In this document: positions 1-49,494 of the stretch, piece by piece
How the letters are laid out: each line of letters opens with the position of its first letter
How positions within the stretch are numbered: position 1 is the first letter of the stretch
Source: Symbiodinium natans
Lineage: Eukaryota; Sar; Dinophyceae; Suessiales; Symbiodiniaceae
DNA length: 64,000 nt
Assembly (NCBI GenBank): GCA_905221605.1
Contig: CAJNDS010001713.1
Coordinates: 592,001-656,000 of the forward strand
Direction of reading: 5' to 3'
The notes under the pieces: model-generated
Databases searched by the model: none
What the model was told of the DNA's origin: nothing
The model's input: the letters and a program-made list of their open reading frames with translations, nothing else
Position numbers and translations under genes: made by a program

Positions 1-3000
1 GGCGCGCCCGTGATGCCACCGATGGAGATGCCGCGGCAACGCTTGGCCTGCCTGCGCCTGCACTGCGAAGATGGCTTGGGGTTTAGGGTTTAGGGTTTCC
101 GGTTTCGGGTTTCGGGTTTCGGGTTTCGGGTTTCGTGTTGGGATGTTTCCCTTTATACTAACAGCCGTATAATAGGGATAAAATGTGGGGGGGGGGGGGG
201 GGGGTGCCTATTGAGGACTGTTAGTGTATTGGGGGAACATCCCAAGTTTCCAGTTTGAAGGGCGAAGATGGCTTCGTTTCTCGGAGGTTTAGCAACTCGA
301 TAGCCCACTTAGGAAACACAAAGGTTCTTGGCCCAAGGACGGGCGTGAACCCAGTTTGTCAGTATTGTGGCTCGCTGGGAGTGACCGTCTTAGGCATCAT
401 CAGACACTTCCTCTGTTTAAGCCTCGCGTTTCCAATCCCGAGCGCAGAACCCCAGACAAGGGTTTAGCGTTTAGGGTTTGAGCAAGTCGTAGAGGTGCAG
501 TCACCAGCAATGAGTGTCCGTGTGCTCAAACCTTCAGGCGATTGCACAAGTCCTGATGCCAAAAGGGTTTAGGGCTCAGGGTTAGGGTTTAGAGTTCGGT
601 TCGGACTTCCGACCCCCCCCCCCCCCCCACCCTAAACCCTAAACCCTAAACCCTAAACCCTAAACACTAAACCCCCCCAAAAAAAGCGCAAAAAAAAGCA
701 AAGCGAGGATCATGGAGCTGCTGGGTGACGAGTGGCTTTTGGTTGCCGCTTTCCACTGGCGCTGGGCCTACTCGGGCGATGGCTCGAGGAGCCTTGCGAG
801 TTTAGGGTTTAGGGTTTAGGGTTTAGGGTCTAGGGTTTAGGGTTTAGGGTTTAGGGTTTAGGGTTTAGGGTTTAGGGTTTCTAAGGGTTTAGGGTTTCTA
901 AGGGTTTAGGGTTTCTAAGGGTTAAGGGTTTAGGGTTTAGGGTTTAGGGTTTAGGGTTTCTAAGGGTTTAGGGTTTAGGGTTTAGGGTTTAGGGTTTAGG
1001 GTTTAGGGTTTCTCGAGGAGCCAGGCCATGCCAGCCTTCATGGGCGGTGCGAGGCGGGCGCAACATGTTTTTGGGTTTATAGGTTTCAGGGTTTTAGGGT
1101 TTAGGGTTTGGGGTTTGGGGTCTAGGGTTTAGGGTTTAGGGTTTAGGGTTTAGGGTTTAGGGTTTAGGGTTTAGGGTTTAGGGTTTAGGGACTAAGCTTT
1201 GTTCCCCGTTATACTAGCAGCTCCTTGGTAGGGATTGTAATCGGGGACTAGAATCCCCATTAAGGACTCTTAGTAGGGGGAACATCCCAAGGCGTTGAAC
1301 TGGGGGGGGCGGTTCTTTTTGTAAAACACCCCCCAATCTTTGAGCACCTTGAGCCTGCACTTGTAACCCGTGGTGTCGAGAATTCCGCCACCCTAGCCTA
1401 AGAATGCCCGAAACCCTACATGTTTTTAACAGGATTTGGGGCAGAAGGAGGGAATGGAGTGAGGCCACTTCCAAACCACCGGCGCCACAACGAGGACAGA
1501 TTTTTTGTTTTTTTCGCGTCGGACTTTCCTGCTAGGTCTGGTCAACCCTATAATCCTTCAACCCCAAACCCTAAACCCCAAACCCGAAACCCCAAACCCT
1601 AAACCCTAATCCCCCCCTCAGAGCACCAGAGGAGCAGTGGGGAGCTTTCCTTCGGCCCGAGGGCACCGTCGAAGAGCAGCGACGAGTCGCGCGATTCCTT
1701 TTCGACAAGATGTTCCTCACGGAGACTGGGTTCAGGAACTTGAAGGTTTAGGGTTTGGGGTTTGGGGTTTGGGGTTTAGGGTTTAGGATTTAGGGTTTAG
1801 GTTTTTTTTGGGGTTTGGGGCCTCACGGAGCCTGGGTTGCGATTTCAAAAAGAGTTTTCGGGTTTAGGGTTTAGGGGTTTATGGGTTTATGGGTTTAGGG
1901 TTTAGGGTTTAGGGGTTTAGGGTTTTTGGTCTGTGGTTTAGGGCCTCACGGAGACTGGGTTGTGGCTCAGGAACTGGAGGGCTTTTAGGGTTTCGGGTTC
2001 TGGGCTCAAAATAAAGAGTTTCGGGTTTAGATGTTAGGGTTTCAGGGTAGAGGGTTTAGGGTTTGGGGTTTAGGGTTTAGGGTTAGGGTTTAGGGTTTAG
2101 GTGAGAGAGAGAGAGAGAGAGGGTTTAGGGTTTCTGAACATTTGGGGTTTGTGGGGTTACTATGCGTGGCTATGGTGGTATTCTCGCTTAAGTTTCCGGA
2201 GCAAAGGAGCCCAGCCAAGTGTGGGTTGGTTTGCAAACCTGGATATCTTGAAAGTTCCGCTGGCCCGAGAATCCCTGTGGGTTTTGGGTTTGTTATTTGG
2301 GGTTTAATCTTGGGATGTTCCCCCTTATACTAACAGTCCCTGATCGGGATATAGTACCCCCCTTTAAGCCCATGTCGCCCATAGAATCTTTACTTTGACG
2401 GGGGTCCCCAATATCCGCCTCAGGAGGTTGGCATCAAGAAGGGGATGCGACAGCTGGGCGTCACGAAGGAGTGGCCCAAGAACTGGGATTGGCGGCGAAG
2501 GGGGGATTTTCCCCGTTGATTAAGGTTGCAGTAAGATGCCCAGGAATGCCCTTAGTTCTTTTCGCATGTTGGGGTTCCTTCTGTTTTCCGATATCCAATC
2601 AAACACGAAAGCGCTTGCAACCTGTTGGTAGGTCGTCAAACCTCTCAACCCCTGAGCCCCAAAACCGCCCAAGCGGACAAAACGGACAACGTGACAGCCC
2701 CAAACCCAAGCGGACCAAGCGGACAACACCGTGACAGCCCAAAACCGCCCAAGCGGACCAAGCGAACAACACCGTGACAGCCCAAAATCGCCAAAGCGGA
2801 CCAAGCAGACAACACCGTGACAGCCCAAAACCGCCCAAGCGGACCACACGGACAGCACCGTGACAGCCCAAAAGCGCCCAAGCGGACCAAGCGGACAACA
2901 CCGTGACGGCCCAAAAGCGCCCAAGCGGACCAAGCGGACAACACCGTGACAGCCCCAAACCGCACAAGCAGACCATGCGGACCACGCGGACAACACCGTG

Positions 3001-6000
3001 ACAGCCCAAAACCGCCCAAGCATGCGGACCAAGCGGACAATACCGTGACGGTCCAAAACCGCTCAAGCGGACCAAGCGGACAACACCGTGACAGCCCATG
3101 CAAAGCCGCCCAAGCAGACCAAGCGGACAACACTGTGACAGCCCAAAACCGCCCAAGCGGACCAAGCGGACAACACCGTGACAGCCCAAAACCGCCCAAG
3201 CGGACCAAGCGGACCAAGCGGACAACACCGTGACAGCCCAAAACCGCCCAAGCGGACCAAGCGGACAACACCGTGACAGCCCAAAACCGCCCAAGCGGAC
3301 CAAGCGGACAACACCGTCACAGCCCAAAACCGCCCAAGCGGACCAAGCGGACAACACCGCGACAGCCCAAAACCGCCCAAGTGGACAACCTTAAGCCCTA
3401 AACCCTAACACCTAAACCCCTAACCCCTAATCCCTAAACCCTAAACCCTAAACCCTAAACCCTCAACCCTCAACCCTAAACCCTCAACCCTAAACCCTCA
3501 ACCCTGAACCCTGCCCTTGAGAGCAGGAGACCGTTGCTGCCTGGGAGGCTTCCTGCAAAAACGTCCTGGGCATTCTGGCTCCTGTGCGACCAACCCCTAG
3601 ACTTTCTAGGGTTTAGGTTTTTCGGGTCGAGGGTTTGGGTTTAGGGTTTAGGGTTTGGGGTTTAGGGTTTGGGGTTTGGGGTTTAGGGTCTGGGGGTGTC
3701 TAGGAAACCTTGTATAGGGAAGCGTAGGGAGCATTCGGGAGAAGTAGGGAGTATTAGGGAAGCTTGGGTTACACATATTTCCCTTGAACCCCCCGTCCCT
3801 CAAGAACCTTACTAGTGAGAGCGCTCCTCGAAAACCTAACCCTGAACCCTAAACCCTAAACCCTAAATAAACCCTAACCCCTAAACCCCAAACCCCAAAC
3901 CCTAAACCCTAAACCCTAAACCTTAAACCCTAAACCCTAAACCCTAAACCCTAAACCCTACATTAAGGACCGGCATCTTGCGCAGCATTCCTTCGTGCTG
4001 GGGGGCAAGCCGAGCACTGCGGACTATGCGCTGCTGGGGCCTCTCTACGCCCACTTGTATCAGGACCCAGTTCCAGGCGGAGGGTTAGGGTTTAGGGTTT
4101 AGGGTTTAGGGTTTAGGGTTTAGGGTTTAGGGTTTAGGGTTTAGGGTTTAGGGTTTAGGGTTTAGGGTTTAGGGTTTAGGGTTTAGGGTCTGCAGTAGTG
4201 AGCGTGATGCTGGAACCGGGCTGCTGTGAACCGAGGCCTGTTGTAAAAGGGTTTAGGGTTTAGGGTTTAGGGTTTAGGGTTTGGGGTTTAGGGTCTAGGG
4301 TCTAGGGTCTAGGGTCTAGGGTCTAGGGTCTAGGGTCTAGGGTCTAGGGCGGCGGCCTAGGAGCTCCAAGCCCGGAATTGTGGACTTTACGAATATAGGG
4401 GACCCCCGAATTTACTCCTCCCAAACAGTAGGGTTTCCTGATAAGAAGGACCCCAATAAGGTACCCCTACCATTCGGAGTGTCATGAGGAAGGTCGCGGG
4501 ACCCGGCCCCAAACAGAGACTCAAAAGAAATTTACCGCGTGGGCTGGGATCATTCCCTAAACCCAGATCCTACAGTACCTCCAGCAAAAGCCCTGACCCC
4601 CAAGTGCGAGCCAGAAGCCTGCTGCTTGTTGAAGGCAAGATGATGCGGGAGGAGTTCCCCTTGGTCACAGACTGGTGTGAACGACTGCATGACTTGGGTG
4701 GTACACTGTCGACCTTCGTCAAGAGCAGCTCGGGCACTGTTATTTCGTGCGGTAGGGATGCAACCGGTTCTGGCGGCGGGGGGGGGGGGGGGGGGAGTCC
4801 TTCCAGGCCTAGATCACGCGTCCTGAAGGATGTACAAGAAGGTAGAGTTGATTTGGCTGTCAAAATTATGGTCCCTTTTTGGGTACCCTAAATATTAGGT
4901 GCCGTATGATAATGGGGATCCAAAAAGGGACCATAATTTTGACAACCACCCAAATGGGGGTTCCAAGTTTCAACTGTACAGACAAGGACAGGAGCCCGAA
5001 GAGTGGCTTGCGAATGACGAAGTGCCAGCTGGATGCATCGAGCTGCTTCAGGCCCCTTGGGAGAACTCTCCTGGAGTTGAGAGCAGGACAAGTCGTTTGG
5101 CTGGAGGGAATGAGGTATGAGGTACCCTAATATGATCCCTCGAAGTGTATATAAAGGGCCCAATTCCCTTATTCCTTACTCAGAACCAGAGGGGACCTAA
5201 TACAGCCCTGTGATTATAATCCCAAAAAAAATGTTTCATAGCCCCCCCCCCCCCAACTTCAGGTGTTTTTGGATGAGATGTGGCCTGTCTTGCAGAGCTC
5301 ATGTGATACATTGCGCTGCTCAGTTGCATCATCTGTTTCCCCGACACAAGCTGTGCTGTTAAGGTGGGTGGTTGAGGTTTTGGGGTTCTCTTCGAAATCG
5401 TACCCTTTAAGGGATTATGTAGCATACCTCATTCCTTCCCAATGAGCCTCAGCTTGATTTGTTGACGAGGAGAGTACTTGCGGTCTCCCTGGTGCCTGCT
5501 TCTGAGCACGACGCTTCCTGACAAGTGTGCCGGCAGCGGTATGCAGCGGTCAGCCATAGGTACCACATAATTAGGGGGTTTGCAGTACAGATACCATACT
5601 TATAACCCTGCTTTTATTTACCCATGGACCAGCCAATAGGAGTTTCCCAGCAAACAAAAACGCAGCAGAAGCATCCCAAACAGCCAAGGTGGGGATCAGC
5701 CTCCGAGAAAAAAAGCGCCCTGAACGATGCGGCTCCTAAGCAAGATGCAACCCCGAAGCCGAAGCCATGATAAGCCAACCCGACCCGAACCCATGTTTTC
5801 AACGCCTGATGCCTGTCGAACTCCCTGAAGCCCCTTCAGTCCCCCAAACACCCCAAACACCCCGAATTCGAAGGTCCTAAAGTAAACCCAAACACCCCCT
5901 ACCAAGCCCTAAACCCCAAACCCCCAAACCCCCAAACCCCAAACCCTGAAGCCGAAACCCTAAACCCTAAACCCTAAACCCCAAACCCTAAACCCTATGA

Positions 6001-9167: not shown

Positions 9168-12100
9168 AGTCGCAACAGCGGCTCTACGAGAGATTGCTCG
9201 ACCGGGAGCTGCGGAACCCTAAGCCCTATACACCCTAACCCCTATTGAACGGCTAGTCGGGTGCCAAAAACCCCTATTGAAGGTTGAAGGTTGGGGGGGT
9301 TTCAAAAAGGTATAGAAGGTTCGCGGATTAGGGTTCAGGGTTTGTTTGAAAGGTTGAGGGTATTCGGAGCTTAATTAGGCTTGGGGACCAGGGATTGCAA
9401 GGCTCTGCAGTGCAGTGAGGCTCAAAGTCTCAAAGCCTACCGCCTCCTCTACTTTTGCTTAAAACCTCAAAAGGATTTAAAAAAAAAAAAACAATCCCTA
9501 TATTACCCTTAATAAGGAAGAACATTTGCTATTTTTCGGGGTTCTTAAGCAGTTAGTAGTTCCTGCGGGGGCCTTCGAAGTGTCGGATGTTGGGGATGTG
9601 GGCCGAGCCTTGCGTGTTTTTCCATGGGAAGCTAGGCGTCTGTGAGCCCACTAAACCCTAAACCCTAAACCCTAAACCCTAAACCCTAAACCCTAAACCC
9701 TAAACCCTGTTTAAGTCGAAACCTAAACCCTGCAAACCCTCGAAGCCCCACGACCTCAAGCGGGAGGCGCTGAAGCCTCTTTTGGAGCAGCTACGGGGAG
9801 GCGATCAACTCGCCGAGATTTCCCGAGTCTTGCGGCGCCTTGTTATGGAAGCAGCGCCTTTTCTAGGGAGGCCCTTGGGGTATTGTCTGTTTTAAATTTT
9901 GTTGGGCATTCTCTGGGATGAAGAGGGTCCGACTTCGGAGTAGATGTCGGATGGTATATATAGAGGACAGCGGGCCAAGCTTGTACCCTAAACCCTAAAC
10001 CCTAACCCTGGAGCTATATCCCCCTTGGGACTATTTTGTTATTTTGTTTATATAAAACCACAGAGGACATCAAAAAGCATTATGTTTACCAAGGTTCTAA
10101 GGGGGGTATAGGGAGGTTGAAGGGGCTGAGGGTGTATCTCTGAACCCTAAACCCTAAACCCTAAACCCTAAACCCTAAACCCTAAACCCTAAACCCTAAA
10201 CCCTAAACCCTAAACCCTAAACCCTAAACCCTAAACCCTAAACCCTAAACCCTAACTCTGGAGGAATGTTCGAATGAGTCGCAAGCATCTTGGCCACATG
10301 GGGAGCTTGAACAAACCCAAATGTTGGGCTTTAGGGTTTAGGGTTTGGGGTTTAGGGTTTAGATGCTCACCCTTTTTCTAACAGCTCCTTAATAGGGATT
10401 CGAATACGGCGTATACTATGATCCCGATTAAGGACTGCTAGTATAAGGGGGGACATCCCAACCCAAATGGGTGATTTTTTTCCAAATTCCGTCTCCCTTT
10501 CTCAGGTGTAAAGCACCGCCCGGGTCTCTGAACCCCAAACCCTGTAGTGTGGCTGGTCTGCTTGGGGTTTAGGGTTTAGGGTTTAGGGCTACCTCAAGTA
10601 CCCCAAGCCATACTTTTTGGGTTGCTGTTACGATTCCTGGCAGCTTCTCCCAAGCAGACCATGGCAAACAAGTAGGCTTTGGGTTAAGACAAGGGCTGGG
10701 AGGGGAGAACACGGGGGGTTTCGCGCTTTTGTGAAGCCGCATCTTCGGGCTTCTTGTGGTTCAGGGTGGAACACGCTTGCCTAAGCTCAGAGGGCGACGT
10801 AGGTGTTTTAGGGGGCTATAGAAGGTAACAAAAAGGGGTTTTAAGGGAGAAGAAGATTAAGGGTCCCTTCAAGGAGGGGGTTCCTTCTTACACCCCTTAA
10901 TGTAGCCCCTAGTAGCCCCTAAACCCTAAACCCCCTCAAAACCGTCCACAGAGAGCAACTTTCCTCCTAAGCTGCAACCCCGTAGTGCTTGGCTAGATGG
11001 GTGGCAACAAACCATCCAGAAAAAAACAAAACCCCACAGGGCCCCGAGTACACGTGTAAAGCCTACTTGGAGGTTCATGGGTGCTTATAACCCCTACTAT
11101 AAGTCTACTTATAACCTACTTCGAGGACTTAGGAGGCTTGTGCTGCTGCAAGGGAGGTCCTTAGCACCCGGCTGGCTGCAGAGACCTGGTTGCAAAAAAA
11201 AGGAGGTTTATGAGTACAGTTGTAATTGGGGTTTAAAGTACCCTGAGCCTCCAAGCAGGGATGGGCGGCTCGTGCCCTGTGAGCGGAGCTCAATCGCATG
11301 GCTGCGGCTGTGGCCCTTGCTGCCGCTGCTCTGGTTCGGCAGGCGAAGGGGGGGTTTAGGGTTTAGGGTTTAGGGTTTAGGGTTTAGGGTTTAGGGTTTA
11401 GGGTTTAGGGTTTAGGGTTTAGGGTTTAGGGGCATCACCTTTTTCAAGAATCCCCAACTCCTTTTCGGCAGTTTCCCTCAAACACCTGGTTCGTCATAGC
11501 CTGCATTGAATGAAAACAGCTTGGTGACCTTTTTGCTAAAGGAGGCGAGGGGGGGGGTGGGGGGCTCTGGATAGTTCCGGTCTTGTCTGGTCCTCAAGAG
11601 GCTTCTTTTGCCAGTTCCCCGGTCCTGAATGACGTACACCTTCTGGTGCATGACATAGATAAGTACATGCCACACCACTGACAATTCAGTTCAACACCAA
11701 CGATAGGCACAACATTCATCACCAGTAATTACCAACAGGAACGCATGTGGTCATACTTGCCTCGGCATAACCTGATACTTCTTACGAAGCCTCTTTCGGG
11801 CCTTGCTTGGCCACTAAGCAAAAACCCTAAACCCTAAACCCTAGATTCTTCCTCGCGACCATCGCGCCACCAGGCAGATTTTGCCAAGCACGTGGCGAGC
11901 AGCACTCGGCTTGCAGAGATGAAGCGCAACCGCCCTCCTGAACGAGGATATGTTTGCGCATCTTGCCTAGGGCTCCTTGTGGACCGCATGAACCTTGAAA
12001 GGGTTTATGGTCCATGTACCTGAATCGGGATTCTAGTCGTATCGGGTATATGCCCCCCCCCCCCCCCCAAGTTTTCATTTTGTCCCCAAGGTTGGCCGCG

Positions 12101-12229: not shown

Positions 12230-13560
12230 TCTGTCGCAGGAGGTGTCACCGGGGTCTCTTGAGTTCAAGCACGTGATATCACGACGCGTTACTAGTGGCA
12301 TGCACCTGAAATTGTCTATCTCCTGCATCCGAAGTTCTTGGTCCACCAGGCATCGGTTGTTTGCAGGTACTCCTGTTCTGGCTACATCTTGAAGAAACGG
12401 CAGGTTGTAGCCATTTCTAAGCTGCATGGTAGGCGGGAAGCCCAAAGGCCAGCAACCATGATCCTGAAGACATGTGTGCCTGAATGCCTGAGGCACCCCC
12501 TTCACCCCTGCTAGAGCTGTGGACCACTGGACCACACATGACCATCATCTTCCCCGTGTGTCTTCTGTGCTACGCCCTATAAGGGCCTGGGACCCGCCCT
12601 GCCATCGTTCACTGTGCTTATATGAGACATGTATGTGCTGGAATATATCTAGGAGGATTCCAGGGCAAGATCCAGGTTGAAGGGTGACAGGCAAAGCCAA
12701 ACAGTTTCATTCTTAGCTGCTGCCATCATCTCTGCTTCTATTTGTGCACTCACTATTTTCTGGGATGGGGAGCTACATGAAGATCACCTGCCAGTTTGTC
12801 TCGCGTGGCCGACACTTTTGGTTCATCAGGCACACTTCGCTTGGCTTAGTTACTTAGTACTCGTTGTCGAGTAGGTAACCTTTAACCTTGTTGGGGGATT
12901 AGATTCCCTTGATAATCCCACAGGTTAACATGTCTTTATCATCTTTAGACTTGGCTTCTTGTTCTGCTGTTTGGGCAACGCTGTGGCATACTTGGTTCTT
13001 GAGCAGGATCTTGGCCATTAGCAGGTCCTGCCAGACTAGGTAGAAACCGGGGCTTTTCCCGAACTTATCCCAGGAAGATTGCCAAGTCTAGCTTTTTGCA
13101 AGCGGCAGCATGGTGCTGGGAAGTGCAAGCGGCAGCATGGTGCTGGGAAGTGCCATTGGCATGAGTGGTCAAGGTGCTGGATGTCGCAATATTGCCTTTC
13201 ATCTGGCATGCTGCATCGCAACGCAAAGGCTCCAGCTGCACCTCCAAGCACTGGGGGTGTGCCCGGTCAGTTTCTCCAGCCACGCGATTGACTCACAAAT
13301 GCTTCTTGGGCCGATGGCCCGAACAATGCCCCACAGATCGCCTGTCCCAGGCTGCGCTCTAGTCTTGCTGCTGCCCACACTACTTGGGGGTTGTGCGAGA
13401 GGTCCTTGCTTTTGACCAATGTATATTCAATGAATATTCAATGGAAATTTGACAGAGACTGTCGCAGCGCGCGACAGATTGGCGAAAGATACCGCCAAAG
13501 ACGTCGCACTCTTCGCGAGAATTCTGAGGTTACGCTTCGTGGCTCTTGAACAGCATGTCA
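12230..13560. other. Unassigned unique sequence
   Basis: No telomeric blocks and no convincing exon. A minus-strand ORF of 110 codons spans 12203-12535 but overlaps the 3' end of the preceding plus-strand model and resembles nothing I know. A family E element lies at about 12873-12940. Near 13106-13158 there is a short tandem pair of GGCAGCATGGTGCTGGGAAG. Confidence 0.5.
12873..12940. repeat. Dispersed element family E
   Basis: Copies at 12873-12940, 22828-22925 and 56044-56168. They share GAGTAGGTAACCTTTAACCT at the left, a TTGGGGGTAT core, and a complementary GGTTAACCTTT-like right part. The two larger copies continue to GGATACTGGACAACTAAG. The 56044 copy carries about 30 bp of extra sequence between two TAACCT motifs. 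Confidence 0.7.
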
Positions 13561-13989: not shown

Positions 13990-16900
13990 GTCCGCTTGTA
14001 AATCGACGGTGGCGCGGTGCAGTGTCCGCTTGCGTGCAGCGCATGTCTCTTCCCTCCGTGCCTCTGTTTCGATCGAGCCAATCCACTTAGGGTCAAAGCG
14101 CCCGAGGAGCTAAACTTCTTGCCCCACGTCTCCGGGCTCTACTTCAAGTGGCAGTCCCGACAGACACGTGCAGCTGTGCCTGCATGCTGCCTGGTGCGCA
14201 TGCGCTGACAGCTTATGTTCAAAGCTTTGTAGAAACATCTTCGTGGCTGTCCCCGCCGGTGAGCATCTGCAGATGTTACCGGTGCAGTGTCAAGCCGCAC
14301 TGGCTTTGGGTCCTCATGAAGGCAAGCATTCGGCGCTACACGGTGGTGAGGCTCAGCATGCAGTGCGCAAATTGCGGTACGTGGAAACAGCTGCCAGCCC
14401 CCACAAGGCCTGAGCTTCGAGCTGCATCATCTGCATGCACTATAGAAGTTACTGTTTTTGTTACTTTGGGCCCAGTTCCCTATGCACTCTCTTCAGCTCT
14501 CATGCAGCTGCGCAGGTGTTGCAGGGTGGCTGATGTCACACCGTCGCTGGTACTGGATTGTGTCCCCTGGCCTACTCTCTGCAGTTTCCTTGCTCAAGTG
14601 GAATGCTGCAAGTGCTGCCCTTTAGCAACGAGACTGTCTGGGTCAGGAGCCAGATCGGTGGGCTGCATGGTGGCCGCCTGCAGCGTGTGCTTGTGAGGAC
14701 ACCTCTAGATTTTCAGGCCAAAACAGCGTGTGCCTGGTGCTGCCGGTCGACAACTTCTCCCCTGAATACAACATGCAACGTTCAGAAATGGATGCCGTGG
14801 CAAGAGTAGCCGTGCCTCTGACTTTGCTGCCTTTGCTTCCGATGGGCGGCGAGCCTGCTGCATAAGCTTTGCACAAAAGCAGCGATAGTTGCCGCTTTGC
14901 ATCCCGTTGAGAATTCTAGATGCAGATCACTGCATTTCCCGGGTGACCAGCCAAAGCCTCTTCTGCAGGCGTACGTTTCTGCAAATAGGTGGAGGCAGGG
15001 ACAAGCACGATCTTCAAGGGGTAGGAGTTTTTGTGCCCCACTCAAGAGCTCACAGCGAAGCATCCGCTTGTAAATCGACAGTGGCGGGGTGCAACGTCAC
15101 TTTACTTGCAGTGCAAGTCTCTTGCCTCCGGGCCTTTATTTCAGCTGCGAGCAGTCCGCAGCCCCACGGTGCCTTGATGATTGCTGTTACAGTGAAGTGC
15201 TGCAGACTGCGCGGTGCGCATGCGCTGACAACTTATGTAGAAGCATCTTCGTGGCTGTCCCCGCCGGTGAGCATCTGCAGATGCTACCGGCGCAGTGTCA
15301 AGCCGCACTGGCTCTGGGTCCTCATGAAAGCATGCATTCGACGCTGCACGGTGGTGAGGCTCGGCGGCACGCAGCATGCTCTGCGCAAACGGCAGTGCGT
15401 GGAAACCGCAGCCACCCCCCACAAAGCCTGAGCTTCGAGCTGCATCATCTGCATGCCCACGCCCTACAAGTTGCTGTTTGTGTTCCTCTGGGTTCTGTTC
15501 GGTGTTTGCGCACTTGCGCAGAAGTGGCAGCGCAGCACTGATATTGGAATTTTTCACCTGCGCCTGCAGCTTGCCGTTTCTTGACAGCGAAAACATGCAA
15601 GCGACAACCTGCACCCTCGGCAATGCAGACTGACCGGTCAGTGAGCAAGATGTGTGCGCTGCCCAATGGCTGCAGGCAGCGTGTGCTTGCAAGTGTGCCT
15701 GGTTATGCTTTTGCAGGCCTGTGCGCCTGGTGCTGTCGGGAGGAGGACGGCTTTCTTCCCCAACGCACCCTACAACGCTCAGAAAGGGCCATCATCGCGC
15801 AATAGCGACGGTGCCTCTGACTCTTCTGCCTTTTGCTACGGTTATGCGAGCCAGCGTTCTAATCCGGAGGTGCCTACTTGAGCCTTGAGCTTGGCATAAG
15901 TGCTGCAATACCAGTTTTCATCCCATTGAAGTTTTGGGTGCCGATGAAGCCACCCAAACGCTACTGGCTCACGCGCCTGCAGGTTCATGGCTCCCGTTCG
16001 GCCAGCAGAGCCTCTTCTGCAGGCGTATGTTTCTGCACAAAATAGCTCGAGACAGGGACCAGAAAACTGGATACTTCAGGGGCACACATTACTGTGCCCA
16101 ACTCAAAAGTTCACAGCGAAGCACCCACTCGTAAATCGGCGAAGGCGCGGTGCAGTGTCGGCTTGCGTGCAGTGCATGTCTCTTCCCTCCGTGCCTCTGT
16201 TTCAGCTGAGAGCATTTTGCGGCCCAGTAGTGCCATAATGAACGCAGTTGCAGTCCAAAACTTGCAAGAGAAGAACACCCTACTTCAAGTGGCAGCCCCG
16301 ATAGACACGCGCAGCTGTACCTGCATGCTGCCTGGTGCGCATGCGCTGACAGCTTATCTGAAAACTTTGTAGTTGTAGAAACATCTTCGTGGCTGTCCCC
16401 GCCGGTGAGCATCTGCAGATGTTGCCGGCGCAGTTTCAATCCGCACTGGCTCTGGGTCCTCATGAAGGCAAGCATTCGAGCATTCGACGCGCCAAGTGGC
16501 GAGGCTCGGCGGCACGCAGCATGCAGTGCGCAACTTGCAGTTCGTGGAAGCAGCTGCCAGCCCCCACAAGGCCTGAGCTTCGAGCTGCATCATCTGCATG
16601 CCCTACACGTTACTGTTTTTGTTACTCTGCGCCCAGTTCCCTACGCACTCTCTTCCGCTTTCATACAGCTGCGCAGGTGTTGCAGGGTGGCTGATGTCAC
16701 ACCGTCGCTGGTACTGGATTGTGTCCCCTGGCCTACTCTCTGCAGTTTCCTTGCTCAAGTGGAATGCTGCAAGTGCTGCCCTTTAGCAACGCAGACTGTC
16801 TGGGTCAGGAGCCAGATCGGTGGGCTGCATGGTGAGCGTGTGCTTTGAGATAGCTTTACACTGTCATGCCAAAACAGCGTGCACCTGGTGCGGTCGGTCG

Positions 16901-19900
16901 GGGGACAACTTCTTCCTTGAATACGACATGCAACGTTCAGAAATGGATGCCGTGTCAAGAGTAGCCGTGCCTCTGACTTTGCTTTGACTGCCGTTGCGCG
17001 GCGAGCCTGCTGCCTAAGCTTTGCACAAAAGCAGCAATGATTGCCGCTTTGCATCCCCTTGAGAATTCTAGATGCAGATTACTGCGTTTCCCGGATGACC
17101 AGCCAAAGCCTCTTCTGCAGGCGTACGTTTCTGCAAATAGGTGGAGGTAGGGACAAGAAGGATCTTCAAGGGGCAGGAATGTTTGTGCCTCACTCAAGAG
17201 TTCACAGCGAAGCATCCGCTTGTAAATCGACAGTGGCGGGGTGCAACATCACTTGACTTGCAGTGCAAGCCCAAGTCTCTTGTCTCCGGTCCTCTGTTTC
17301 AGCTGCGAGCAGTCCGCAGTCCCGCGGTGCCTTGATGATTGCTGTTACAGTGATGTGCTGCACACTGCGCGGTGCGCATGCGCTGACAGCTTATGCAGAA
17401 GCATCTTCTTGGCTGTCCCCGCCGGTGAGAATCTGCAGATGTTACCGGCGCAGTGTCAAGCCGAACTGGTTCAGGCAAGCACCTTGGCCTACTCTCTGCA
17501 GTTTCCTTGCTCAAGTGGAATGCTGCAAGTGCTGCCCTTTAGCAACGCAGACTGTCTGGGTCAGGAGCCAGATCGGTGGGCTGCATGTTGGCCGCCTGCA
17601 GCGTGTGCTTTGAGATAGCTTTACATTGTCAGGACAAAACAGCGTGTGCCTGGTGCGGTCGGTCGGGGGACAACTTCTTCCTTGAATACGACATGCAACG
17701 TTCAGAGATGGATGCCGTCGCAAGAGTGGCTGAGCCTCTGACTTTGCTTTGACTTCCGTTGCGCGGCGAGCCTGCTGCCTAAAGCTTTGCACAAAAGCAG
17801 CAATGATTGCCGCTTTGCATCCCCTTGAGAATCCTAGATGCAGATTACTGCGTTTCCCGGATGACCAGCCAAAGCCTCTTCTGCAGGCGTACGTTTCTGC
17901 AAATAGGTGGAGGCAGGGACAAGAAGGATCTTCAAGGGGCAGGAATGTTTGTGCCCCACTCAAGAGTTCACAGCGAAGCATCCGCTTGTAAATCGACAGT
18001 GGCGGGGTGCAACATCACTTGACTTGCAGTGCAAGCCCAAGTCTCTTGTCTCCGGTCCTCTGTTTCAGCTGCGAGCAGTCCGCAGTCCCGCGGTGCCTTG
18101 ATGATTGCTGTTACAGTGAAGTGCTGCACACTGCGCGGTGCGCATGCGCTGACAGCTTATGCAGAAGCATCTTCGTGGCTGTCCCCGCCGGTGAGCATCT
18201 GCAGATGTTGCCGGCGCAGTTTCAATCCGCACTGGCTCTGGGTCCTCATGAAGGCAAGCATTCGAGCATTCGACGCGCCAAGTGGCGAGGCTCGGCGGCA
18301 CGCAGCATGCAGTGCGCAAATTGCAGTTCGTGGAAACAGCTGCCAGCCCCCACAAGGCCTGAGCTTCGAGCTGCATCATCTGCATGCCCTACACGTTACT
18401 GTTTTTGTTACTCTGCGCCCAGTTCCCTACGCACTCTCTTCCGCTTTCATACAGCTGCGCAGGTGTTGCAGGCTGGCTGATGTCACACCGTCGCTGGTAC
18501 TGGATTGTGTCCCCTGGCCTACTCTCTGCAGTTTCCTTGCTCAAGTGGAATGCTGCAAGTGCTGCCCTTTAGCAACGCAGACTTTCTGGGTCAGGAGCCA
18601 GATCGGTGGGCTGCATGGTGAGCGTGTGCTTTGAGATAGCTTTACACTGTCATGCCAAAACAGCGTGCACCTGGTGCGGTCGGTCGGGGGACAACTTCTT
18701 CCTTGAATACGACATGCAACGTTCAGAAATGGATGCCGTGGCAAGAGTAGCCGTGCCTCTGACTTTGCTTTGACTGCCGTTGCGCGGCGAGCCTGCTGCC
18801 TAAGCTTTGCACAAAAGCAGCAATGATTGCCGCTTTGCATCCCCTTGAGAATTCTAGATGCAGATTACTGCGTTTCCCGGATGACCAGCCAAAGCCTCTT
18901 CTGCAGGCGTACGTTTCTGCAAATAGGTGGAGGTAGGGACAAGAAGGATCTTCAAGGGGCAGGAATGTTTGTGCCTCACTCAAGAGTTCACAGCGAAGCA
19001 TCCGCTTGTAAATCGACAGTGGCGGGGTGCAACATCACTTGACTTGCAGTGCAAGCCCAAGTCTCTTGTCTCCGGTCCTCTGTTTCAGCTGCGAGCAGTC
19101 CGCAGTCCCGCGGTGCCTTGATGATTGCTGTTACAGTGATGTGCTGCAGGGACAAGAAGGATCTTCAAGGGGCAGGAATGTTTGTGCCCCACTGAAGAGT
19201 TCACAGCGAAGCATCCGCTTGTAAATCGACAGTGGCGGGGTGCAACATCACTTGACTTGCAGTGCAAGCCCAAGTCTCTTGTCTCCGGTCCTCTGTTTCA
19301 GCTGCGAGCAGTCCGCAGTCCCGCGGTGCCTTGATGATTGCTGTTACAGTGATGTGCTGCAGGGACAAGAAGGATCTTCAAGGGGCAGGAATGTTTGTGC
19401 CCCACTGAAGAGTTCACAGCGAAGCATCCGCTTGTAAATCGACAGTGGCGGGGTGCAACATCACTTGACTTGCAGTGCAAGCCCAAGTCTCTTGTCTCCG
19501 GTCCTCTGTTTCAGCTGCGAGCAGTCCGCAGTCCCGCGGTGCCTTGATGATTGCTGTTACAGTGAAGTGCTGCAGACTGCGCGGTGCGCATGCGCTGACA
19601 GCTTATGTAGAAGCATCTTCGTGGCTGTCCCCGCCAGTGAGCATCTGCAGATGTTACCGGCGCAGTGTCAAGCCGCACTGGCTCTGGGTCCTCATGAAAG
19701 GCAAGCATTCGAGCATTCGACGCTGCACGCGCAAAGAAGTGGTGAGGCTCCTTGGCGCGCAGCACGCAGTCCGCAAATCGCGGTGCGTGGAAGCAGCTGC
19801 CAACCCCCACAAAGCCTGAGCTTCGAGCTGCATCATCTGCATGCCCTACACGTTACTGTTTTTGATACTCTCCCCCCAGTTCCCTGCGCATTCTCTTCAG

Positions 19901-22486: not shown

Positions 22487-24166
22487 ATGGTGCCAGGAGG
22501 CGGCTTCGATGTAGAAGAGGCCAAGATGGCTTCGGAGGAGCTCCGCCTGGAATCTGAGATTCGTTCCTTAGAGATGCTTGGGGAAGCCCAGTGGTACCCT
22601 TTTCCCTTTTTTTTTTTGCTTGATGGGTTTAGGGTTTAGGGTTCCGGGTTTAGGGTTTAGGGTTTAGGGTTTAGGGTTTAGGGTTTAGGGTTTAGGGTTT
22701 AGGGTGTTCCCTTATAAAATCACCAACCCAAACAAGGGTGCCCTTATGATCATAAGATGGTTACTGGGCTACAGAAGGATGCAGATCGGCCTCATGGACA
22801 TGAAGCGCCAGATTGAGGCTTAGCAGTGGAGTAGGTAACCTTTTAACTTTTTTGGGGGTATGAGCTTCCCTTTATAATCCCAGAGGTTATAAGCTTTGGT
22901 TCCCCAAGGATACTGGACAACTAAGGAGGTCCAGGAAGAACACCTGCAGCGTTCCTTGGGGGCCACATGAACCTTAAAATTGGGGTCATAGACCCTATAC
23001 AACTGTAATTCTTATTCAGGTATGGGGTCATATACCCTATACTACTGTAATTCTTATTCAGGTATATGAACCCTAAACCCTAAACCCTCCCAAGGTTGGC
23101 AGCAGATGCTGGCCAAGAGCAAGGCGGGACGCCTGGAATGTGAGAAGCTGCAAGGGGCCCAGGAAGAGCATCTTGGGGACCCAGTGGGTACCCTTTCCCC
23201 TTTTTTTGCTTCAAGGCTCCCTTGTAAAGTCGCCAACCCCAAAAAAGGGTGCCCTTATGTACTAAATTAAAAAATTATGGTTACAAGGATGGGCCCCCCT
23301 AGTTAGAAGTAGAGTTCTAAGTGCCCTACATTGGGTTATAAGGATCCTAAATTAGGGTTATAAGTCCCTTAACTACAGTTAGTGTAAGGGGGCCCGTCCT
23401 TGTACTGGGCTACCAAGGCTTGCCCAACTGCGGGCCAAGTGCGCTGCCATCGAAGCAAAGCGCCCACCGCGACTGCCGAGCCCTCCAAGAGCCATCCCTG
23501 CAGAAGAGCCGCCTCCTGACGAGGAGGCGTGTAACTTACTTCGCCTTTAGTTGACATTTAAGTTTTTTGGGTTTCCTTGTTTAGTGGGAATATTAAGGTT
23601 TAACCTTTTCTTAGTAGGAAAATTATAAGGTTTAACCTTTTTCCCCTTGGTTATTGGAGAAGTAAGGTAAAGAAGCTGACGCACCAGAGGCCGCTGGTAA
23701 GGAGGCAAAGGTTCCGATTCCTCGACGCCCCGGCAGTACCAAGGAGGCACCTGCCGCGTTGAAGCAACGAGGGTCCGAGCGTAGCTCCAGAGGAGGCTAA
23801 GGGACATTTAGAAATGTTTTTGGCACTTTAATTCCTAAGAAACAACAATATAGATGTAATATATATATATATATACTTATATAATTGTAATTAAAATTTG
23901 TGCTAGGGTTCCAAGTTTTCAGTATAGGAGGAAGTGCCAGAGCAGCCGCCGCAGCCGCCGCTGCAGTTGTTGCCCGAGGTCCAAGCTCTGGCACTCGTGG
24001 CGGCTATGCGCCTGCACGGTCGACTTCGGGGACCAGATGAACCCGAAAAGCGAAAAGGGTTTGTGGTCCATATTCCCTTAATGGGAATTGTAGTAGGAAT
24101 AGGGTATCTGCCCCCAATTTTAGGGTTAAGGTATGTCGCAGAGGTAGTCGGGGTTAGCTCGGCCTA
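22487..24166 (+). CDS. Coiled-coil/proline-rich protein whose introns are dispersed elements
   Basis: Exons at 22487-22590, 22775-22817, 22926-22950, 23095-23183, 23418-23529, about 23667-23795, 23931-24023 and about 24131-24166. The first four join in phase with GT, GC and GT donors to give FDVEEAKMASEELRLESEIR, then SLEMLGEAQRMQIGLMDMKR, then QIEEVQEEHLQRWQQMLAKS and KAGRLECEKLQGAQEEHLG: a charged, heptad-like helix. Later exons are K/E/P/A-rich (LAQLRAKCAAIEAKRPPRLP, EADAPEAAGKEAKVP). The start ATG at 22487 is the first in frame after a stop-rich stretch, but an upstream exon is not excluded. The introns are, in order, family F (with telomeric insert), E, B, F (with nested element), G, an AT-rich stretch, and B. 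The phase at 23183/23418 does not fit the best downstream frame, so one junction or one base is wrong. Function unknown; helical scaffold-like proteins often look like this. Confidence 0.7.
22591..22774. repeat. Family F element disrupted by telomeric repeat
   Basis: The left part GTGGTACCCTTTTCC and the right part CACCAACCCAAACAAGGGTG to ACTGGGCTACAG match the copy at 23184-23417. The centre (about 22625-22705) is replaced by about 80 bp of TTTAGGG. Other copies: 50028-50098 (right part) and 63388-63458 (compact). The element runs from GT after CCCA to AG before AAGGATG, so it is the whole intron. Confidence 0.8.
23184..23417. repeat. Family F element carrying a nested palindromic element O
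   Basis: Against the copy at 22591, this one is interrupted at GGTTAC/TGGG by about 120 bp (about 23285-23408) that begins AAGGATGGGCCCCC and ends GGGGGCCCGTCCTTG. The two ends are inverted repeats. The trinucleotide TAC flanks the insertion on both sides, consistent with a 3-bp target duplication. Confidence 0.8.
23530..23666. repeat. Dispersed element family G
   Basis: Copies at 23530-23666, 34384-34549 and 62529-62612. They share the end TTATTGGAGAAGTAAG (TTATCGGAGAAGTAAG at 34540), TTTAGCAGGA/TTTAGTGGGA motifs and TTGAACTTTACT/TTTAACCTTTT-like interiors. The right end is directly followed by coding-like sequence at 23667 and 34550. Confidence 0.7.
23926..23931 (+). repeat. AGGAGG direct repeat at an intron edge
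   Basis: AGGAGG occurs at 23791-23796 and 23926-23931, at the two ends of the intron 23796-23930. A GC-AG splice within the repeat keeps the coding frame. The intron interior is AT-rich with a (TA)n run and matches none of the other families. Confidence 0.55.
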
Positions 24167-24234: not shown

Positions 24235-25978
24235 GTGCAGGTGGCAAAAAACCCTCAAACCCTAACCCGGCTGGGCTTGCTCTATCCAGCAGAGCCCGTG
24301 CAAAGCGTTTCACCTGAAATGAGAGATCTCGAATCTTGGTGTGGAAAAGTGTCCAAGGTGCCTGTGCACGCCATAGAGAAGGCAGATTCGCTTGGGAGTC
24401 TACAAGTTTGCCTGCTTTTGGTTGTCCAGGGTCATGGTAAGCTAGACCAGGCAGCCTGCGCAATCACTTCTGGTGCACCAGCGACCTCATGCCTACAAGC
24501 TCATCCAGAACTGTGGCATACTGTTGCACCACTTGAATATCCACGGTGGGTGCGATGGCAGATTCATTCCGAAGAGGGTTTGGGTGAGGGATTTTGGTGG
24601 AAGGATGCGACGGCTTGGATATGGAGGGGATTGTCAAAATTAGGGATCCTTTTGGGGTCTCTATTATATTCATACGGCTGCATAAACCTCTGGACTCTAC
24701 CCCAGCCACCCAAAACCTACTAGCCTCCTTTTGTAGGCTCCTGTTGTAAAACCCCTTATTCGATTCTGAGGAAACCTACAAAAAGCACAGGTTTTGGTCT
24801 TGCTTCTTAAGGCAGACTCTCTTAAGCTCTCAAGCCTCTACGAAGTTCGCGACGTCACTTGCCTTCGAGGCTCAGCCCATGGCTTTTGCGGGATTTTTGG
24901 GGAGGTACACATCGATGATCACACTTTAAATTCCCAGCTATCCTTCAAGCGCTTTAAGAATCGTAGACAAGGAGTGGGGGATATTTCCACTGAGGAGTTC
25001 TTTTTTGGATTTGGATTTCTGCTCTGTCTTCAATCCAAAATCGGAATAGGCTTACGAGTTCTCTTGAATCTTCAATATGTCTTGGAACTTGTCCCTAAAC
25101 CCTAAACCCTAAACCCTAAACGCTCCAAACGGTACCCCTGACCGCCGAAACCCACAAAACTAAAGTCTGTTCCTGGGCTGGCGGGCTTCAGGCGCCTTGA
25201 TGGGCGTAAGTAGGGTTTAGGGTTTTGGGTTTTGGGTTTAGGGTTTAGGGTTTCTTGACTCTAACCCGGCTGGCTGCAAGAGACCTGGATGCAAAAAGGG
25301 TTTAGGGTTTAGGGCTTAGGCAGGGTTTAGGGTTTCCTTCTTCGGGCTCTTCCTTCGCAAGGCTCTCGCAGGAATCTTGCTCGTGTGTGAGTCGCCTGAT
25401 GTACCTTTGCGCCGGGCAAGCAAGTTGGCCCAAGTACCCCAACCTTGGGACGAGATGAACACTAAAAGTGTTTAGGGTTCATATTTCCTGAATAAGAATT
25501 ACAGTAGTACTAGGGCTGTAGGACCCCAATTTCAAGGTTCATTTGGTCCCCAAGGAAGTACCCCAAGTATTCTAGCATGTAAGCGGGCTTTCATGGGAAG
25601 CATTCCTGCATCTCACGCGTAGCTATGGACTTGACAGAAGCCGAAATCAACCCCTAAACCCTAAACCCTAAACCCTAAACCCTAAACCCTAATTTTGCAC
25701 ACCAAGCCCATGCTTTGCTCGAACAGAACCCAGAGCTGCCATCGGTAGTTCGCGAGCGGCCGCCGAGGGCTGTGGCTGCCGCAGAGGCTGGAAACACTCG
25801 ATCAGTGTTAGGGATCCTTTTTACTTTTTGGGTTATGGGCTTTCTTATATATGAACAAAAGGGATCATTTTTTCTTCCTAGGGGAACAGGGATTAAGGAA
25901 AGAGAGTGTACACTTTTTCAGGTGCTTTCAGACCACATTACAGGACTGACCAGAGCATTTTTGCACTTTGGGCAGTAG
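24235..25978 (+). CDS. Hypothetical multi-exon protein
   Basis: Best exons: 25338-25442 (FFGLFLRKALAGILLVCESP, then VPLRRASKLAQ), 25707-25786 (HALLEQNPELPSVVRERPPR, then AVAAAE) and 25922-25978 (VLSDHITGLTRAFLHFGQ, stop TAG at 25976). The last two join in phase by a GC-AG splice that removes a family C element. Weaker upstream blocks: about 24270-24480 (VSPEMRDLESWCGKVSKVPV), 24813-24975 (ADSLKLSSLYEVRDVTCLRG) and 25168-25208 (FLGWRASGALMG). A family B element at 25443-25555 sits between the repeats that end the first exon. I do not recognise the product. Confidence 0.5.
25432..25566. mobile_element. Family B element with 11-bp target-site duplication
   Basis: AAGTACCCCAA lies at 25432-25442 and at 25556-25566, immediately outside the 113-bp element 25443-25555, which begins CCTTGGGACGAGATGAAC and ends GTTCATTTGGTCCCCAAGG. 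The perfect flanking repeat plus terminal inverted repeats is the signature of a DNA-transposon-like insertion. It directly follows coding sequence (LAQVPQ). Confidence 0.85.
25793..25895. repeat. Dispersed element family C
   Basis: Copies at 25793-25895, 55934-56031 and 56680-56789, about 100 bp and highly similar: ATCAGTGTTAGGGATCCTTT, then CTTTTTGGGTT(A/C)TGGGCTTTC, then TTCCTAGGGGAACAGGGATT. The interior is palindromic around AAAGGATCC. The 56680 copy has extended inverted ends TGCCTATAC...GTATAGGCA. The copies at 25793 and 56680 are in introns with a clear following exon. Confidence 0.85.
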
Positions 25979-32551: not shown

Positions 32552-32621
32552 GACTGAGAAGTTGGACCTGCCCCCGGGGGGCCCCCTTGCTCTGCAAGCG
32601 TACCTGGTCGTGGAGCTCTAG
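32552..32621 (+). CDS. Terminal exon of a hypothetical protein
   Basis: After ACCTCAG the frame reads TEKLDLPPGGPLALQAYLVV, then EL and TAG at 32619. Upstream exons are not clear; the plus ORF ending at 31919 (SFHLLDMAGLGPSRSGVDSL) may be related or separate. The exon lies between a large CCCTAAA array and the TTTATAGGG array. Confidence 0.4.
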
Positions 32622-32642
32622 GGGTTTCTTTCGGGGGTTTTA

Positions 32643-32892
32643 GGTTAGGGTTTAGGGTTTATAGGGTTTATAGGGTTTATAGGGTTTATAGGGTTTATAG
32701 GGTTTATAGGGTTTATAGGGTTTATAGGGTTTATCGGCTTTGTAGGGTTTATAGGGTTGATAGGGTTTGTAGGGTTTATAGGGTTTATAGGGTTTATAGG
32801 GTTTGGAGGGCTTATAGGGTTTATAGGGCTTTTAGAGTTTATAGGGTTTATAGGGTTTGTAGGGTTTATAGGGTGTATAGGGTTTACAGGGT
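32643..32892 (+). repeat. TTTATAGGG nonamer variant array
   Basis: After two TTTAGGG units the period changes to 9 bp (TTTATAGGG) for roughly 25 units, with point variants (TTTGTAGGG, TTGATAGGG, TTTGGAGGG). The unit looks like a telomeric heptamer with an inserted TA, amplified in place. The degenerate CCCTATAAG/CCCTATGAA stretch at 37625-37880 may be a decayed opposite-strand relative. Confidence 0.9.
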
Positions 32893-33339
32893 TCAGGAAG
32901 GCTTGAAGAGTAGCTTTCCAGGGTTGAGGGCTCCGGGGACGTTTGGGGCTCGAGGATGTTCAGGGCGTATGGTTGCTACATTTCGGCTCTCTGAACTTTG
33001 TGGTGCTTTGCTGTAACTTAAGATCCTTAGCCTTTTTGGGTTCACTGGGTTTCTTAAAACAGGCAGCTAAAAATTGAATTTATATAGCTACCCTGCCAAG
33101 TGCAACCAAGTGAAGCCCTCGAAAGTGGCGAGATGCCGGGAAGGGCCTTTAGGGAGACTTCAGTGATATAAGGGGGGGTTTCGACTCGAAATGGAATGTT
33201 GAGCCATCATGGATCTAGGCGGCCCCAACAACCCAAAACCCTAAACCCTGAACCCTGAACCCTAAACCCTAAATCCCAAACCCTTATATCCCGAAGCAGC
33301 CCCAAGCAGGTCTGACTCGCCCTCTGTAATACCGTGAGG

Positions 33340-38150: not shown

Positions 38151-38502
38151 GCTGCTTGCAGGTTCAGGGTACCGGGTACTTACAACCCCCCAATTATACC
38201 TGGTAGACTTATATTTGGGGTTACAAGTACCCATGAACCTCCAAGTAGGGGGAATCAAGATGGACATCATACCTTGGGGACACCAAACGAACCTGAAAAT
38301 CGGGGTCATATACCCTATACTACTGTAATTCTTATTCAGGTATATGAACCATAAACCATAAAATTGGGGTCATGTACCCTATACTACTGTAATACTGTAA
38401 GTCTTATTCAGGTATATGAACCCTAAACCCTAAACCCTTTTAGGGTTCATCTCGTCCCCAATGTAGGTGGGACGAGTCCCAAGCTCTGAGCGGGCGTGTG
38501 AC

Positions 38503-39542: not shown

Positions 39543-39841
39543 CCACAAAACCCTAAACCTTAGGCGTGCGCAGTGCGGGGGGGGGGGGGGGGGGGCTGAC
39601 AACAAAAAGCACCAGAAACCCTCAACCTGAATGTGTCATCAAGCACGCCTTCGCAAATAGTGTTCAAGGTAAAAGATAAGACCTTGGGGACCACATGAAC
39701 CTTAAAATTTGGGGTCATATACCCTATACTACTGTAACTCTTAATCAGGTATATGAACAATAAGCCCTTTTAGGGTTCATTTCGTCCCCAAGGAAGTCGC
39801 CTCGCTTCCCAACCTAGCGTCAGAGGTTCCCTGGAATGCAG

Positions 39842-41447: not shown

Positions 41448-41796
41448 CAGAAAGCCTCAAAACAAGTGTTCTCTTGAGGCCAAAAGCGCTCATCTCGAGG
41501 CTTTCACCCTGAACCCTCTGATAGCCCCCCTCCCTTGGGGACGAAATGAACCCTAAAAGGGGCTTATTGTTCATATACCTGATTAAGAGTTACAGTAGTA
41601 TAGGGTATATGACCCCAAATTTTATGGTTCATTTGGTGCCCAAGGTCTATATAAGAGTTACAGTAGTATAGGGTTATATGACCCCAAATTTTCAGGTGCA
41701 TGTGGTCCCCGAGGTCCAGACGAGACTGGAGTGACGAGAGCCCCCCGTTCGACGAAAACCTCCTCCAGCTTGCAGTTTCGGGGTCCAGACATTAGG
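41448..41796 (+). CDS. Exon pair spliced across a family B element
   Basis: About 41462-41530 (CSLEAKSAHLEAFTLNPLIA) ends at the left arm of the family B element 41533-41714. Sequence after its right arm reads SRRDWSDESPPFDENLLQLA, then VSGSRH and TAG near 41793. The stop is in ACATTAGGG at the edge of a TTTAGGG array, so it could instead be intron. Confidence 0.4.
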
Positions 41797-48745: not shown

Positions 48746-49494
48746 AGCCCGAGGTTGGAAGTGAATGTAACTGCGGCCAGCACGGAGGTCGACCTGTAGG
48801 GGCTCTCAGGGTCTTTACTTGGAGGGTTCAGGGTACTTAGAACCCCAACTATGGGGTTTAGGGTTTAGGGTTTAGGGTTTAGGGTTTAGGGTTTAGGGCT
48901 ACTTGGAGGTTTCTTGGGTACTTACAACCCCACTTAAGTCCTCTAAGTAGGTCAGAAGTAGACTTACAATAGGGGTTTACGGTTTAGGGTTTAGGGTTTA
49001 GGGTTAATAGGGGTTAAGTACTCACGAACCTCCAAGCAGGGTCTTAGGTTCCAGAGTCGGCAGCCTAAGATCATCAAAGACACTTCGAAGCCGTGGGGAC
49101 CAAAGGAACCCTAAAAGGGTTTATGTTCCATATGCCTTAATCGGGATCATAGTAGTATCGGACACACATGAACCCAGTTTTAGGGTTCGTTTCGTCCCCA
49201 AGGATTTGGGGTTGTTAAAGCCTTCAGAGTCCAGCAGATCTTGGAGTTTGGCGTTTTAGGGTTTGCCTGAGTTTTGGGGTTTCGACGTTCGTGGCATCTT
49301 CTGTTAAGTCCCTCAGAACAAGGTTCCCTCACAAGCTCAGTCAAATCGAAGTGTGCTTCTGTCGGTTTGCTGATGAGATCTTTCCAGGGGGGCTCAAGAT
49401 CTGGAGGCGAGCTTGAGTTCGATGAGCAAAAAGGGTCCTTAAGGGAGGGGGGTTCAAGGGCGGTATGTAACCCAAGGGTCCCCAGTACGCCCAA
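48746..49494 (+). CDS. Hypothetical protein with family N and B introns
   Basis: About 48746-48810 (QPEVGSECNCGQHGGRPVGA), then family N, then about 49042-49089 (FQSRQPKIIKDTS), then family B (49091-49203), then about 49203-49255 (GFGVVKAFRVQQILEFG, or in another phase a stop at 49216), then about 49330-49494 (SVGLLMRSFQGGSRSGGELE, then FDEQKGSLREGGSRAVCNPR). Frames after the B element are uncertain. Confidence 0.4.
48818..49045. repeat. Family N copy with two telomeric insertions, one with 10-bp flanking repeats
   Basis: A left-arm fragment (48818-48853) is joined through TTTAGGG (48853-48895) to a fuller copy (48898-49045). Inside the latter, AATAGGGGTT at 48968-48977 is repeated at 49006-49015 around 28 bp of TTTAGGG. 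Removing one repeat and the insert restores the continuity seen in the 38160 copy. Confidence 0.8.

Follow-up and report, generated by a model that had tools for sequence, protein, structure and literature searches.

How does the coding sequence of a small gene come to be split by six short elements? The gene in question encodes a small, probably coiled-coil protein of the free-living dinoflagellate Symbiodinium natans and lies in a stretch of 64,000 nucleotides (contig CAJNDS010001713.1, positions 592,001 to 656,000; here called the window; G+C content 51.6%). The original prediction for positions 22487-24166, made from the letters alone, was that dispersed elements lie between the coding blocks and that these are introners. 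The dispersed elements are indeed there; four of the five types for which we searched are abundant genome-wide. How introns originate has been asked for a long time, and this gene, whose six introns can each be traced to a transposon-like insertion, offers a clean worked case. We suggest that the introns of this gene very probably are non-autonomous DNA transposons, that is, introners, which would be spliced out in the cell.

Our corrected model has seven coding exons and six introns, all on the forward strand. When joined, the exons form a single open reading frame of 190 amino acids, whose product is identical to the S. natans protein P0001 (100% identity over 100%), itself a gene prediction which could be partly ab initio. 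According to the part of PMC8045281 that deals with annotation, RNA-seq and IsoSeq data were used for the S. natans gene models and GA donors were permitted. The depositors named P0001 hdaC. With Pfam we found only DUF3496, below threshold, and we read the product as a probable coiled coil with a low-complexity tail. We also searched the genome for retrocopies or paralogues and found none: the only matches with E below 0.02 were to five of the seven exons of the gene itself.

Exon 1 (22487..22572) opens with the ATG start, and its joined translation, like that of each exon that follows, is identical to P0001. Intron 1 (22573..22777, GA-AG) consists of the left target site duplication GATG (22573-22576) and an F element (22577-22777) which contains a (TTTAGGG)n insert; the right copy of GATG is the start of exon 2 (22778..22814). 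Intron 2 (22815..22925, GA-AG) is made up of the duplication GAGG and an E element (22819-22925) with the terminal inverted repeat CTTAG..CTAAG, and is followed by exon 3 (22926..22950). Intron 3 (22951..23094, GT-AG) starts with an exonic G (22951), then comes the 2-bp duplication TT and, from 22954, a rearranged and mostly antisense B element; exon 4 (23095..23167) begins with the final G of the element and then TT. In intron 4 (23168..23417, GC-AG) the duplication GCAT (right copy GCTT) precedes an F element (23172-23417), in which a further MITE is nested on the reverse strand (23282..23404). After exon 5 (23418..23530) comes intron 5 (23531..23666, GT-AG) with the duplication GTAA and a G element (23535-23666) bounded by the terminal inverted repeat CTTACTTC..GAAGTAAG. 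Exon 6 (23667..23792) is separated by intron 6 (23793..23927, GA-AG), that is, the duplication GAGG and an AT-rich low-copy element (23797-23927), from exon 7 (23928..24040), which carries the stop codon TGA at 24038-24040 and whose final residues TSGTR derive from a B element.

The donors of introns 1 to 6 are thus GA, GA, GT, GC, GT and GA, with GA in three of the six, and the acceptor is AG throughout. Each intron opens with the left target duplication (for B with the exonic G first), so that the element itself starts four bases inside the intron, or three in the case of B. With the left duplication allowed for, element boundary and intron boundary coincide at all six introns, and the reading frame is preserved at all six after removal of the element plus one target copy. 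Across the six introns 22 of 24 duplicated positions agree, and only two of the 720 possible left/right pairings do as well, two and not one since introns 2 and 6 have GAGG in common; ends or duplications are imperfect in introns 3 and 4, and the element of intron 6 belongs to no high-copy family. The coding blocks are split by elements as had been predicted, but the predicted eight blocks with copies of families F, E, B, F, G and B between them reduce to seven exons and six introns in the reading frame, the last B holding the stop and being no intron in the annotated protein. The inner part of intron 4 is a separate MITE. Splice sites had also been placed at the element ends. This is right for the 3′ AG, which comes from the element, whereas the 5′ site is a duplication beginning with G (G-first below) and not a GT or GC inside the element.

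Most of the 19 copies of the nested MITE that we fetched have the ends TACAAGG..CCTTGTA or near variants, and the element is dispersed genome-wide. It may be a Tc1/mariner-like MITE, a type with a TA duplication and inverted repeats. As a candidate introner it was rejected, since it lacks an AG end.

Seven homologues, P0002-P0008, align to the gene product. In all eight sequences the regions around junctions 1 to 4 are free of gaps and partly invariant. At junction 5 the alignment lacks gaps only with P0002-P0004, and at junction 6 only with P0003, while P0002 and P0004 are off by one residue there. P0005 and P0006 are encoded on contigs no longer than 797 and 977 bases, respectively, which is less than the span of the gene, and this suggests that both derive from spliced transcripts.

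We searched the genome (759,417,921 bases in 2,543 contigs) for five element types: E, F, B, the element of intron 6, and G, by which we mean the family of intron 5, taken to be the G of the original prediction. The first-look candidates, of which 40 per search were scored, number 239 for E, 889 for F, 1,135 for G and 643 for B; the intron 6 element gave seven candidates and is of low copy number. The 21-mer at the 5′ end of F is found at 4,872 genomic places with at most one mismatch, and its reversed control at none. The claim that the same elements recur elsewhere in the window also holds: there are, among others, further copies of E (12861-12931, 56092-56174), F (50041-50101, 63380-63450) and B (11976-12091, 25444-25555, 39682-39793, 41533-41645, 49092-49203). 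Two partial E copies stand in tandem at 56035-56174, and B copies overlap at 38272-38461 and 41533-41714.

The conserved part of the E and F copies extends beyond the introns as first drawn, and short identical words flank many copies. From genomic copies with their flanks we derived the consensus ends CTTAGTAGTAGAGTAGGTAACC..GGACAACTAAG for E and CTTGGTAGCCCAGTGG..ACTGGGCTACCAAG for F; copies of G end with the repeat seen in intron 5 or close variants, and those of B with CCTTGGGG..CCCCAAGG. Terminal inverted repeats are present in E, F and B (profile consensus and copies) and in G (copies), and the intron 6 element has inverted ends of CTA..TAG only. In the G search the element corresponds to query positions 10-141: leaving aside the window's own copy, 26 of 40 left-hand matches have their start at 9 or 10, and of the 21 right-hand pieces 13 finish at 141. 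The G family occurs in two forms, one of 133-144 bp (L109-L112; the window's copy has 132 bp) and one of 101-102 bp (L113-L128).

The match between left and right flank shows a sharp peak at a length of 4 in both E and F. Among the best-scoring copies of each search, which are a non-random sample, the 4-bp match is 0.72 for E (permuted mean 0.29, maximum 0.43; 24 of 29 copies usable), 0.63 for F (0.27, maximum 0.40; 23 of 30 copies) and 0.95 for G (0.36, maximum 0.55; 20 of 20 copies); five of the 29 E and seven of the 30 F copies had been excluded by an end or length filter, and the E locus L027 as too short. Family B has a duplication of 2 bp, with a match of 0.94 against a permuted mean of 0.39 (maximum 0.67) in 18 distinct copies out of 20. 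A family-blind scan of the window for duplications with inverted repeats gave one CTT-ended element (that of intron 5), one CAC-ended and one CCC-ended element; it was too strict and was dropped.

We suggest that an insertion turns into an intron in the following steps. A transposase acting in trans would insert a short element with inverted ends (CTTAG..CTAAG, CTTGG..CCAAG or CTTAC..GTAAG) into a coding sequence older than the insertion. The insertion would copy 4 bp of the target, or 2 bp in the case of family B. The terminal AAG of the element could then serve as 3′ splice site, and where the first base of the duplicated target is G (GT, GC or GA), the left copy would become the 5′ splice site; in family B the G directly before the 2-bp copy would supply it. 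It appears that the elements became introns because the element brings one splice site and the duplicated DNA of the landing site the other. Either orientation would be workable, since the element ends are inverted repeats. Splicing out the element together with one target copy would restore the old mRNA exactly, and the continuity of frame and protein argues that the message is indeed left unchanged. Insertions elsewhere would be kept in the mRNA or be located outside genes.

The continuity of the encoded proteins suggests that E, F and B sequences also act as introns in several unrelated genes. Removal of the element and its duplication is supported by homologues or protein repeats in four further genes. 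At L057 (F, duplication GCTT, GC donor) exact removal gives a joined open reading frame of 1353 nt in which an RCC1-like repeat unit (pattern VYST..AFAAKKTDGTVVTWG) is made whole again. This frame contains eight units, seven of them without an element, and in the eighth the codons for AFAA start precisely where element and duplication were removed; two more units follow in the same frame past a stop, and Pfam reports a match to RCC1_2. At L036 (E, GATA, GA donor) the homologues P0010 and P0011 run across a junction which we set by hand, as the element end is irregular with extra bases; this locus had failed the copy filter. A further protein, P0009 (from ENA), is identical to the L036 product over 83% of the query and ends just inside the E copy, being unspliced there. 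It looks like a gene model that stops too early because an introner went unrecognised, and such predicted proteins, apparently cut short, are a hazard of annotation. A search of PDB sequences with the L036 protein gave no match. At L040 (E, GCAC, GC donor) the homologues P0012-P0014 read through the junction, and at L091 (B antisense to the gene, GCA, GC donor) a Pfam match to Ank_2 over residues 79-171 spans the junction at about residue 115. The frames are also open across the junctions of L033, L048, L054 and L099, for which no junction-crossing homologue is shown. At the G-first copies L031, L041 and L049 we found no convincing coding frame. To the left of the E copy L042 (duplication CTAC) there is a long open frame which the G rule does not explain; the copy may belong to a larger intron or an untranslated region.

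It could be argued that the introns are older and that transposons landed inside them later, so that the elements merely fill them. This seems to be true of two insertions, the nested MITE of intron 4 and the TTTAGGG run in intron 1. For the introns as such we consider it improbable. In an old intron both target copies would be intronic, yet the duplications lie exactly at the exon edges and the AG is provided by the element ends. Moreover, the removal of element plus one copy keeps the frame in six of six cases and restores a repeat unit at L057. These observations argue for introns created by the insertions themselves.

The elements could also be ordinary dispersed MITEs and the coding blocks chance reading frames or a pseudogene. 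Copies are in fact frequent outside obvious genes, many of them at sites without recognisable coding context. In addition, the duplication is G-first in only nine of 28 E and F copies with at least three of four matching bases (one of the nine being the window's own) and in seven of 20 G copies, judged by the right-hand copy; here three of four long-form but four of 16 short-form copies are G-first, which are small numbers. For the gene, chance frames or a pseudogene are largely refuted by the identity to P0001, and together with the seven homologues this exact annotated protein leaves such a reading hardly any credit. According to the original prediction, copies distributed without regard to introns would speak against introners. 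Such copies exist, as many show no sign of coding sequence, but they do not refute the introners, since introners that are DNA transposons may insert at any site.

The scattered copies lead to a tentative proposal, which we hold with slightly more doubt than trust: dinoflagellate introners may be no special class of element, but simply those among many indiscriminate MITE insertions that happen to have a G-first target copy. Unrelated types with 4-bp and 2-bp duplications would have converged on AAG ends, and in the 2-bp family exon and element would exchange a G: the host would provide the G of the donor, and the transposon, with its last base, the opening base of the exon that follows. Selection of G-first sites in genes would be consistent with the six of six introns of our gene compared with the 27 E and F copies that remain without the window's own (Fisher p=0.003). 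If true, such a filter would by itself yield mixed GT, GC and GA donors and a G after the acceptor. It would also provide a simple rule as to which insertions turn into introns, and a reason for the GA and GC donors of dinoflagellates.

We compared the open reading frames that span the excised copies in 86 copy-orientations, picked regardless of coding content; excluded were the E copy of the window itself, a B flank present in duplicate and copies whose duplication was poor, such as L036. A spanning frame of at least 400 nt, a cut-off chosen post hoc with the data in view, is found in six of 19 G-first and one of 67 other copy-orientations (p=0.0003). After exact removal the Mann-Whitney test gives p=0.014, and for the single families 0.045 (E), 0.086 (F) and 0.30 (B). 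When one extra base is left in, G-first copies still lean towards longer frames (p=0.097; at least 400 nt in 3/19 versus 4/67, p=0.18), and likewise with two extra bases (p=0.064; 4/19 versus 4/67, p=0.07). Thus, the signal is in part one of coding context and not of exact excision. Genome-wide, the base after the 3′ end of F is G in 393 of 1275 cases, and the base before its 5′ end is C in 319 of 1746 (p ~1e-15). This strand asymmetry agrees with the G filter, but we do not rest the case on it: of the first 100 rows with a base other than G behind the F 3′ end only 16 have C, a smaller number than a simple model of retention in genes predicts, and a target preference of the transposase may therefore contribute.

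Multiplication of the introns by reverse splicing of intron RNA, without DNA transposition, would likewise lead to multi-copy introns. Target duplications are not expected from this process, and the inverted termini, the arbitrary duplication sites and the occurrence on both strands are equally marks of a DNA transposon, so that we regard reverse splicing as very improbable. That both splice sites lie inside the element (GTAACC.., GTACCC..) is suggested by a GT near the 5′ end of E and F, but this was rejected and is scarcely tenable, as the product then differs from the annotated protein and exon 2 as originally drawn retains an in-frame TAG; in our corrected model this TAG forms the end of E and is removed with the intron.

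The introner reading is supported by the duplications, the inverted repeats, the exact annotated protein, the homologues across the junctions and the same families in other genes. A seventh element, of family B, lies on the forward strand at 24025..24129, holds the stop codon and has no usable G at its site; in the annotated protein it is unspliced. P0002-P0004 end with MSHK, VSHR or ISHR, and the S. natans protein with TSGTR, read from the start of the B element. Just past the element, at 24133..24147 on the forward strand, we find ATGTCGCAGAGGTAG, which would encode M S Q R and a stop and resembles these endings. It is probably a remnant of the former C-terminus. The seventh insertion would thus have hit a site without usable G, failed to become an intron and replaced the C-terminus. 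If the G filter is true, other insertions that miss the rule should likewise show as altered protein ends.

The mechanism as such has been described before, in a closely related species. Gozashti et al. (2022, PMC9860276) describe introners of S. microadriaticum with 4-bp duplications, terminal inverted repeats, a 3′ splice site of their own and a 5′ site taken from the duplication, and report GC and GA donors across introner families. The S. natans gene shares all these features of mechanism and differs from what is described there in the species and in that several element types, one with a 2-bp duplication, occur in one gene. The present case thus refines the known mechanism and does not overturn it; the 2-bp family, splicing in antisense orientation and the G filter are the newer details. 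In the literature on dinoflagellate introners that we searched, we found neither an introner with a 2-bp duplication nor this gene, which is no claim of absence from print. As cited in PMC11453091, Roy et al. (2023) found in five dinoflagellate genomes recent intron creation by introners of many families at a high rate of gain, with 12,253 introns in Polarella glacialis; creation of introns by introners of many families is also what the present gene appears to show. Dinoflagellate introner elements are further treated in PMC10666404, with S. natans in its comparison tables. Like our elements they have inverted repeats at both intron ends and short direct repeats; unlike here, the relevant passages identify them by this repeat pattern and contain no splice-site mechanism. 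The introners of Amoebophrya (PMC7789003) are similar in that the edges of their introns carry inverted repeats (8-20 nt) and direct repeats (3-5 nt). The splice motifs reported there are very diverse, whereas in the S. natans gene the first base is G and the last two are AG in all six introns.

The window as a whole (1-64000) is rich in other repeats. Interstitial runs of TTTAGGG/CCCTAAA, their variants and other simple repeats mask about 8.6-9.1 kb; the density of telomere-like repeats is high, and one such run is that of intron 1. Direct repeats in two blocks, mostly spaced by 43 bases, occupy 2653-3472. At 14864-19658 a 300-base repeat occurs six times with spacings of 213, 766, 1020 and about 2150 bases, and the same region contains several long open reading frames on both strands which may be derived from the repeat. 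Finally, a tandem array of a 9-base unit (TTTATAGGG-like) lies at 32599-32940 beside a long CCCTAAA run.
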